The notes beneath the pieces were generated by a model. It saw nothing but the letters and a program-made list of their open reading frames with translations. It was not told where the DNA came from and made no database searches. A DNA stretch of 37,195 nucleotides from an uncultured bacterium (lineage in GTDB: Bacteria > Bipolaricaulota > Bipolaricaulia > UBA7950 > UBA9294). The position numbers were made by a program, and so were the translations under genes. How positions within the stretch are numbered: the stretch's first letter is position 1; every line of letters begins with the position of its first letter. This document shows, in pieces, positions 36,145 through 37,195 of the stretch. The DNA lies in the NCBI GenBank assembly GCA_913009415.1, contig CAJVYM010000012.1:1-37195 (forward strand), in the 5' to 3' direction.

Positions 36145-36151
36145 ATTGCCC

Positions 36152-36751
36152 ATGCGCGACACTAGCTTCTTTACTCATCCTGAGAACGACTGGCAACGGC
36201 GCTACGAAGCCTTGCGTGCCTCGTTCGTAGAACGCTTGCCCGCAAGGATCGTCGCCGATCGCTTCGGCTACTCCCCCGGGTATATCCGGCTGTTGCGCCA
36301 TCAGTTCCAGCACGGGAAGATCGACTTCTCTGAGCCCGTTCCCGAGGGGAAGGCGGCCCGTCGCCGCGTTACCGCCGAGATCAGGCGCCGGATCAAGACA
36401 TGGCGAGAACGCCGCCTCTCCGCCAGTGAGATCACTGTATTGCTCTCCGAAGACGGTATCGAGATCTCTGTGCGCACCGTGGAACGTGTACTGGCAGAGG
36501 AGGGCTTCCCCAAGTTGCCGCGGCGCACCCGGTTGAAGGGGGGACTGACCGTCAACGGAGCCGAGGTGCCGGAGCGCTCGCAGTTGGTGTCGCTCAGCAA
36601 ATTGAACGGGAAGCGCTTCGATTGTGCCGGGGCGGGTGTGTTCCTGTTTGCCCCGTTCCTGGCCCAACTTGACGTCGAGAAGATTGTCACCGCCGCTTCA
36701 CTTCCCGGCAGTAAAGTGATCCCTGCTATCAACTACTTCCTGAATCCGTGA
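36152..36751 (+). pseudogene. transposase, N-terminal part, interrupted by the next element
   Basis: The ATG at 36152 has no ribosome-binding site. The translation FFTHPENDWQRRYEALRASF, then VERLPARIVADRFGYSPGYI and RRRIKTWRERRLSASEITVL is a tandem helix-turn-helix head of a large DDE-type transposase family that I cannot name precisely. The later segment GAGVFLFAPFLAQLDVEKIV, PGSKVIPAINYFL is the point where related proteins continue into the catalytic part. Here it ends with NP and a stop at 36749-36751. The break coincides with the left side of the IS1380-type element, so that element probably inserted here. Confidence 0.65.
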
Positions 36752-36769
36752 AGCAGGCAGTGGTACGAA

Positions 36770-36799
36770 TTGACATTTGCCTGGGCAGGATGCTACATT
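36770..36799 (+). promoter_or_regulatory. promoter of the IS1380-type transposase
   Basis: TTGACA (36770-36775), an 18-base spacer and TACATT (36794-36799). It lies 50 bases before the transposase ATG and after the presumed left end of the element. Confidence 0.45.
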
Positions 36800-36903
36800 G
36801 TGAGGGGTGAGCGTCCATCTGAAACGTTCACCCGGGAGGTGCGGGGAAGATGCGCTTTGAGATCGTACAGGGGAATGAACTACTCTCTAGCCATTCAGGA
36901 CTG

Positions 36904-36933
36904 GCCCCGTAGAAACAAGGTTTCACGGGGCAG
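36904..36933 (+). repeat. 30-base hairpin insertion, copy 1
   Basis: The order is GCCC, CGT, the core AGAAACAAGGTTTCA, CG, GGGC, AG, followed by host GC. The stem GCCCCGT pairs with ACGGGGC, and the inner GAAAC pairs with GTTTC over an AAG loop with one bulged A. Removing exactly these 30 bases restores the transposase frame. Confidence 0.8.
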
Positions 36934-37070
36934 GCTCTGGTCGGGGAGTTACTGAGCAAGACTAAGCTGCGTAAGCGATTGGACAAGGTGCTGCTGCCAG
37001 ACCATCCATTTCCGGAGATCAGCCACGGGGAAGTGGCGACAGCGATGGTTGGGCTGATCTGTGTGGGGAA

Positions 37071-37100
37071 GCCCTACAGAAACAAGGTTTCATAGGGCAG
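37071..37100 (+). repeat. 30-base hairpin insertion, copy 2
   Basis: The order is GCCC, TAC, the same core AGAAACAAGGTTTCA, TA, GGGC, AG, followed by host GC. It differs from copy 1 only at CG to TA on the left, T to C beside the core, and CG to TA on the right, so the outer stem still pairs. Removing these 30 bases restores Gly-Lys-Pro-Asp-Phe-Asp. Confidence 0.8.
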
Positions 37101-37195
37101 GCCCGACTTCGATGCCATCGAGCCATTCCGGGATGATCCATTCTTTACTACGTCCCTGGGGCTTGATGTGGTGCCATCCAGTCCGACCTTAAGGC

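Follow-up and report, generated by a model that had tools for sequence, protein, structure and literature searches.

The window, which is the whole stretch of 37,195 nucleotides that we analysed, is contig C12 of genome G000 (2.32 Mb in 180 contigs). At its right end lies part of an IS1380-type insertion sequence, whose transposase frame contains two short palindromic inserts. The features are as follows.

36739..37195, + strand: IS1380-type element, left end (CCTGAATCCGTGAA) and 5' part, truncated by the contig end
36850..37195, + strand: IS1380-family transposase frame, N-terminal 115 codons, with both inserts inside (tblastn relatives at 57-82% identity)
36905..36934, + strand: palindromic element copy 1, 30 nt, CCCCGTAGAAACAAGGTTTCACGGGGCAGG, inserted between TGG and CTCTGG (model R1, 46.3 bits; the model was trained on sequences that include this copy)
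36910..36912, + strand: in-frame TAG from copy 1
37072..37101, + strand: palindromic element copy 2, 30 nt, CCCTACAGAAACAAGGTTTCATAGGGCAGG, inserted between AAG and CCCGAC (model R1, 41.9 bits; likewise among the sequences on which the model was trained)
37093..37095, + strand: in-frame TAG from copy 2

The left end of the IS1380 element recurs in contigs C98, C99, C118 and C133, each time with different flanks, and the element boundaries are also based on an alignment with the copies in C129, C32 and genome G002. The transposase frame starts with an ATG at 36850. Pfam DDE_Tnp_1_4 is matched by a full-length IS1380 relative from G002, whereas the fragment in the window matched no Pfam family by itself. 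The left end sits within the 3' part of a 201-amino-acid helix-turn-helix-like frame (36146-36751), and the mobile element may have landed within another gene there.

A preliminary description of this DNA had proposed two 30-nt hairpin inserts, each bringing an in-frame TAG into an otherwise undamaged transposase frame. Both inserts and both stop codons were confirmed. Apart from the two TAGs, the frame is open up to the contig end at 37195, so that its integrity holds for the 115 codons over which it can be checked. The core shared by both inserts, AGAAACAAGGTTTCA, has only these two matches in the window at up to two mismatches, compared to an expected 0.04, and none of 100 shuffled sequences reached two. 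When 51-nt contexts were folded, the two inserts gave -24.2 and -20.2 kcal/mol (z of -3.6 and -3.1), each better than all 200 shuffles, and folding was good on both strands at each insert. Five transitions are the only differences between the two copies. Four of these form two compensated pairs (C-G to T-A and G-C to A-T), as had been claimed for the outer stem, but the fifth (T to C) disrupts one inner pair, so pairing is only partly kept. The simple reading of the window inserts is a loss of transposase function.

Other copies of the insertion sequence show both sites filled or empty. A second copy in the same genome (C98) carries both inserts and has outer flanks that differ from those of the window. 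In contrast, site 1 is empty in C129 and in the decayed C32 copy, also from G000, and both sites are empty, where covered, in the IS1380 relatives from other phyla (L033-L043). In the sister genome G002, a decayed relative (C24, 74893) is filled at site 1 and empty at site 2. Three further left ends (C99, C118 and C133) stop just short of site 1. By a hand count, these ends and those of C12 and C98 lie 127 bases beyond the last difference between copies, as is expected from a k-mer overlap, and thus the three copies are uninformative on site 1. The same count bears on whether the hairpins arose by chance or through faulty assembly near the end of the contig, as might be suspected since the window stops 94 bases past insert 2 and several contigs break within the insertion sequence. 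The break positions fit a k-mer overlap and not the hairpins, and with both inserts present in two differently flanked contigs and insert 1 in a separate genome, this explanation is refuted in practice.

The hairpins are not restricted to IS1380. A pattern with a fixed outer stem, searched across the phylum, had suggested that they were, giving outside IS1380 only one two-mismatch match in G013 that is not recognisably a member; this candidate conclusion was wrong because the pattern fixed the wrong part of the element. With the inner part freed, dispersed copies were found in G002 (two in C92, one in C112), G000 (C41 and C13) and G017 (five). Searches with the exact core and one mismatch gave matches in G000, G002 and G017, and the reversed pattern gave none in these genomes. 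A covariance model was then built from nine members, with matches accepted at E-values up to 0.2. Of 100 genomes of the phylum, 18 contained hairpins that matched the model, with up to 34 per genome (34 in G029, 28 in G009, 13 in G034, 9 in G000, 7 in G002 and 6 in G017), where the E-values are rough, weak matches may be due to chance, and the counts come from searches whose filters lose weak matches. A scan for perfect hairpins was uninformative on families because the units are imperfect; it nonetheless provided the lead to C13. IMG/VR, scanned with the insert pattern and IS1380 peptides, yielded nothing, and Rfam gave no match.

The unit is 30 nt long (29 in some subfamilies) and consists of CCCC, an imperfect stem, a 3-nt loop, the returning stem, GGGC and an unpaired ARG; 34 distinct 32-nt rows gave the consensus nCCCCAGTGnAATAGGATTnCACGGGGCAGGC. 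What is conserved is the ends (CCCC and GGGCARG), while the inner stem varies with compensation. Across the alignment, 33 cells were altered on both sides of a pair compared to 11.5 in shuffles, with the changes held by three inner pairs. The covariation score was 0.258, against 0.123 for shuffles and at most 0.099 for slid structures; related rows inflate such counts, and the slid control preserves that relatedness. Most units lie outside recognisable genes. In L197 (G034 C110) and L205 (G031 C191) the units occur as direct repeats, and in L197 one starts where the previous one ends.

We also observed a second hairpin family, CCTGYCTG...CAGRCAGG, for example at L096 228-257, in L143 and at L107 2085-2111. 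Most of its members are 27 or 30 nt long, and their inner stems vary; G000 and G002 have 27 copies each, and the reversed pattern gave none. Larger dispersed palindromes often hold this family in the same loops, between A and CAAG, in which the window's family is found, and the result is palindromes nested within palindromes.

Comparison of filled and empty sites shows that the units are inserted precisely. The filled sequence AACGTGGCAGA[30 nt]CAAGCTGCTCACGCTACG (L184) and the empty sequence AACGTGGCAGACAAGCTGCTCACGCTACG (L223) match letter for letter across the joined unit, and the filled and empty L105 sites form a second exact pair, with the junction between AACGTGGGAGA and CAAGCTCCACACGCTAC. 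In L187, L200 and L203, units interrupt a repeat between GTTCGTTG and AGTTCGTTG. A larger dispersed repeat, AACGTGGCAGACAAGCTGCNCACGCTAC, has many empty occurrences and also occurs with a unit between A and CAAG. Apart from one ambiguous base (C), no target sequence is duplicated, and at L187, L200 and L203 the 3' base is A, so a duplicated C is not needed there. A purine lies directly 5' in 39 of the 41 listed copies, many of which share one host repeat and are not independent. The preliminary description had proposed a minimal mobile palindrome moved in trans, and the part of this proposal that can be read from the sites, namely further copies outside IS1380 with exact empty sites, has held up; action in trans is a reading from these patterns, with no element-specific enzyme identified. 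Two details did not survive: the GC...GC flanks are a local coincidence and not a family rule, the 5' base being a purine and the 3' base usually but not always C, and the 15-base core, taken as the conserved part, turned out to be the portion whose stem varies.

These results also bear on an alternative in which the palindrome itself is immobile: both inserts would be ancestral to a single IS1380 lineage, and local template switching on copy 1 would have produced copy 2. At site 1, the copies in C12 and C98 and the decayed one in G002 C24 have the GTAGAAAC variant in common, which points to a shared ancestry of insert 1; the C24 copy has no insert 2. However, a shared ancestry of insert 1 also fits a mobile palindrome, and units with exact empty sites stand at unrelated places in several genera; we therefore regard an immobile palindrome as unlikely. 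We consider it probable, at roughly 0.78, that each insert belongs to a REP-like family of tiny mobile palindromes dispersed in this Bipolaricaulota lineage, the units presumably being acted on in trans by a Y1 transposase.

Units were found in other IS1380 genes as well. L181 (G000 C6) is a second, different IS1380-type transposase (DDE_Tnp_1_4) in which a unit lies in frame without a stop and is read as YPNEVRLHGAG. At this site, about 10 residues are absent from a plasmid relative (L220), whose gene has a frameshift close by. L180 (G000 C2) is 85% identical to L181 over 1,310 bases and has the same 32-letter stretch at the same site, with one additional C at the right junction that breaks the frame. 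Identity of the unit at 32 of 32 positions within genes that are 85% identical suggests recent insertion or conversion. All three independent IS1380 sites hold the unit in the same orientation, which counts against the mobile-palindrome explanation, and two of the three gain a stop. As a separate observation, a full-length IS1380 transposase in G002 (L050, C235:45072-46415) has as its sole interruption a 27-nt hairpin of the CCTG family with an in-frame TGA, which sits at a third kind of site.

The two stop-bearing inserts raise the question of whether the transposase is still made, with ribosomes skipping the 30-nt hairpin in the mRNA by translational bypassing or a similar process. The length of 30 preserves the frame, the inserts form hairpins, both are kept in two copies of the insertion sequence, and each gap is bounded by the same or synonymous codons (GCC/GCT for Ala, CCC/CCC for Pro). 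In addition, C12 and C98 differ in four codons downstream of the first TAG, in each case synonymously (P about 0.007). This last result is a real oddity, since a gene that died long ago would not behave in this way; bypassing would explain it, as would recent insertion into, or conversion between, diverged copies. The other points lose force in the light of the family: since the 30-nt unit lies mostly outside recognisable genes, its length is a property of the element itself, and the match of the boundary codons largely follows from the element's first C preceding a target C. Moreover, the position of the stop differs between the two copies, and the stop-free unit in L181 is simply translatable. 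Bypassing is thus very improbable as an account of the inserts. We give equally little credence to the idea that ribosomes bypass or read through the stop-bearing inserts so that these are tolerated, which would make a bacterial mobile palindrome silent at the protein level, like the mitochondrial byps.

As for how a REP-like mobile palindrome would spread, its movement is inferred from the footprints left at filled and empty sites. The units would move as single-stranded hairpins, and the likeliest mover would be a Y1 (HUH) transposase of the IS200/IS605/RAYT kind acting on them in trans; the handling of single-stranded hairpins by such an enzyme would account for the lack of a duplicated target and for the requirement that the stem be paired. 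Y1_Tnp genes were found in G000, G002 and G003. Units are present at two of 12 Y1 loci. At one of these, in G002 C301 (L084 1371-1402), the unit follows closely on a Y1_Tnp (RAYT-like) gene fragment. None of the 12 Y1 loci has units on both sides of a Y1/RAYT gene, and support for a Y1 enzyme as the mover is thin. Multi-copy IS1380 genes would be ordinary targets, and stop-bearing transposase copies would be defective, owing their spread to intact copies or to gene conversion. Units within transposase genes mean that one mobile element disables or decorates another.

A literature search for 'Bipolaricaulota' and 'palindromic' together found no paper. The hairpin family appears to be undescribed, for which a negative search is weak evidence, and the host phylum is little studied. 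Among known systems, the mitochondrial byp elements and T4 gene 60 carry a short inserted hairpin within a coding frame, with a stop and with codons that match at the two ends. The matched take-off and landing codons here (Ala GCC/GCT and Pro CCC/CCC) resemble these, though such a match would arise anyway where an element that begins with C enters before a target C. In contrast, the present units lie mostly outside recognisable genes, and skipping is very improbable here. Non-autonomous IS200/IS605-type elements lack target duplication, have end hairpins and are moved in trans; they have two separate end hairpins and cargo. The unit described here shares the absence of target duplication, the hairpin and, presumably, movement in trans, but the whole element is one hairpin.

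Rickettsia palindromic elements are about 150 bp, often lie in frame and encode a conserved peptide (PMC10969869). They share with the present family the occurrence of palindromes within reading frames, as in L181, where the unit is in frame without a stop; the unit here measures 30 nt, and a stop is acquired at two of the three IS1380 sites (TAG at both window sites). REPs are 20-40 bp and mostly GTAG- or CGTC-tagged, with the GTAG kind linked to RAYTs, and they are known within genes, at times twice in one gene (PMC3733652). The family described here likewise consists of imperfect palindromes of 20-40 nt with a conserved unpaired end motif that are dispersed, mostly intergenic and sometimes within, or twice in, one gene, and a 30-nt unit in 18 of 100 genomes with up to 34 copies agrees with REPs in size and dispersal. 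However, its end motif, CARG 3' of the stem (CYTG 5' on the other strand), is neither GTAG nor CGTC and falls outside both described REP superfamilies, and no unit-flanked RAYT was found at the 12 Y1 loci; we therefore describe the family as REP-like. It also differs from REPs in that the ends of its units are resolved to the base by empty sites, with one ambiguous C. Taken together, a 30-nt mobile unit whose empty sites match to the letter, which duplicates no target sequence and whose stems vary with compensation, provides an unusually clean case on the movement of REP-like palindromes.
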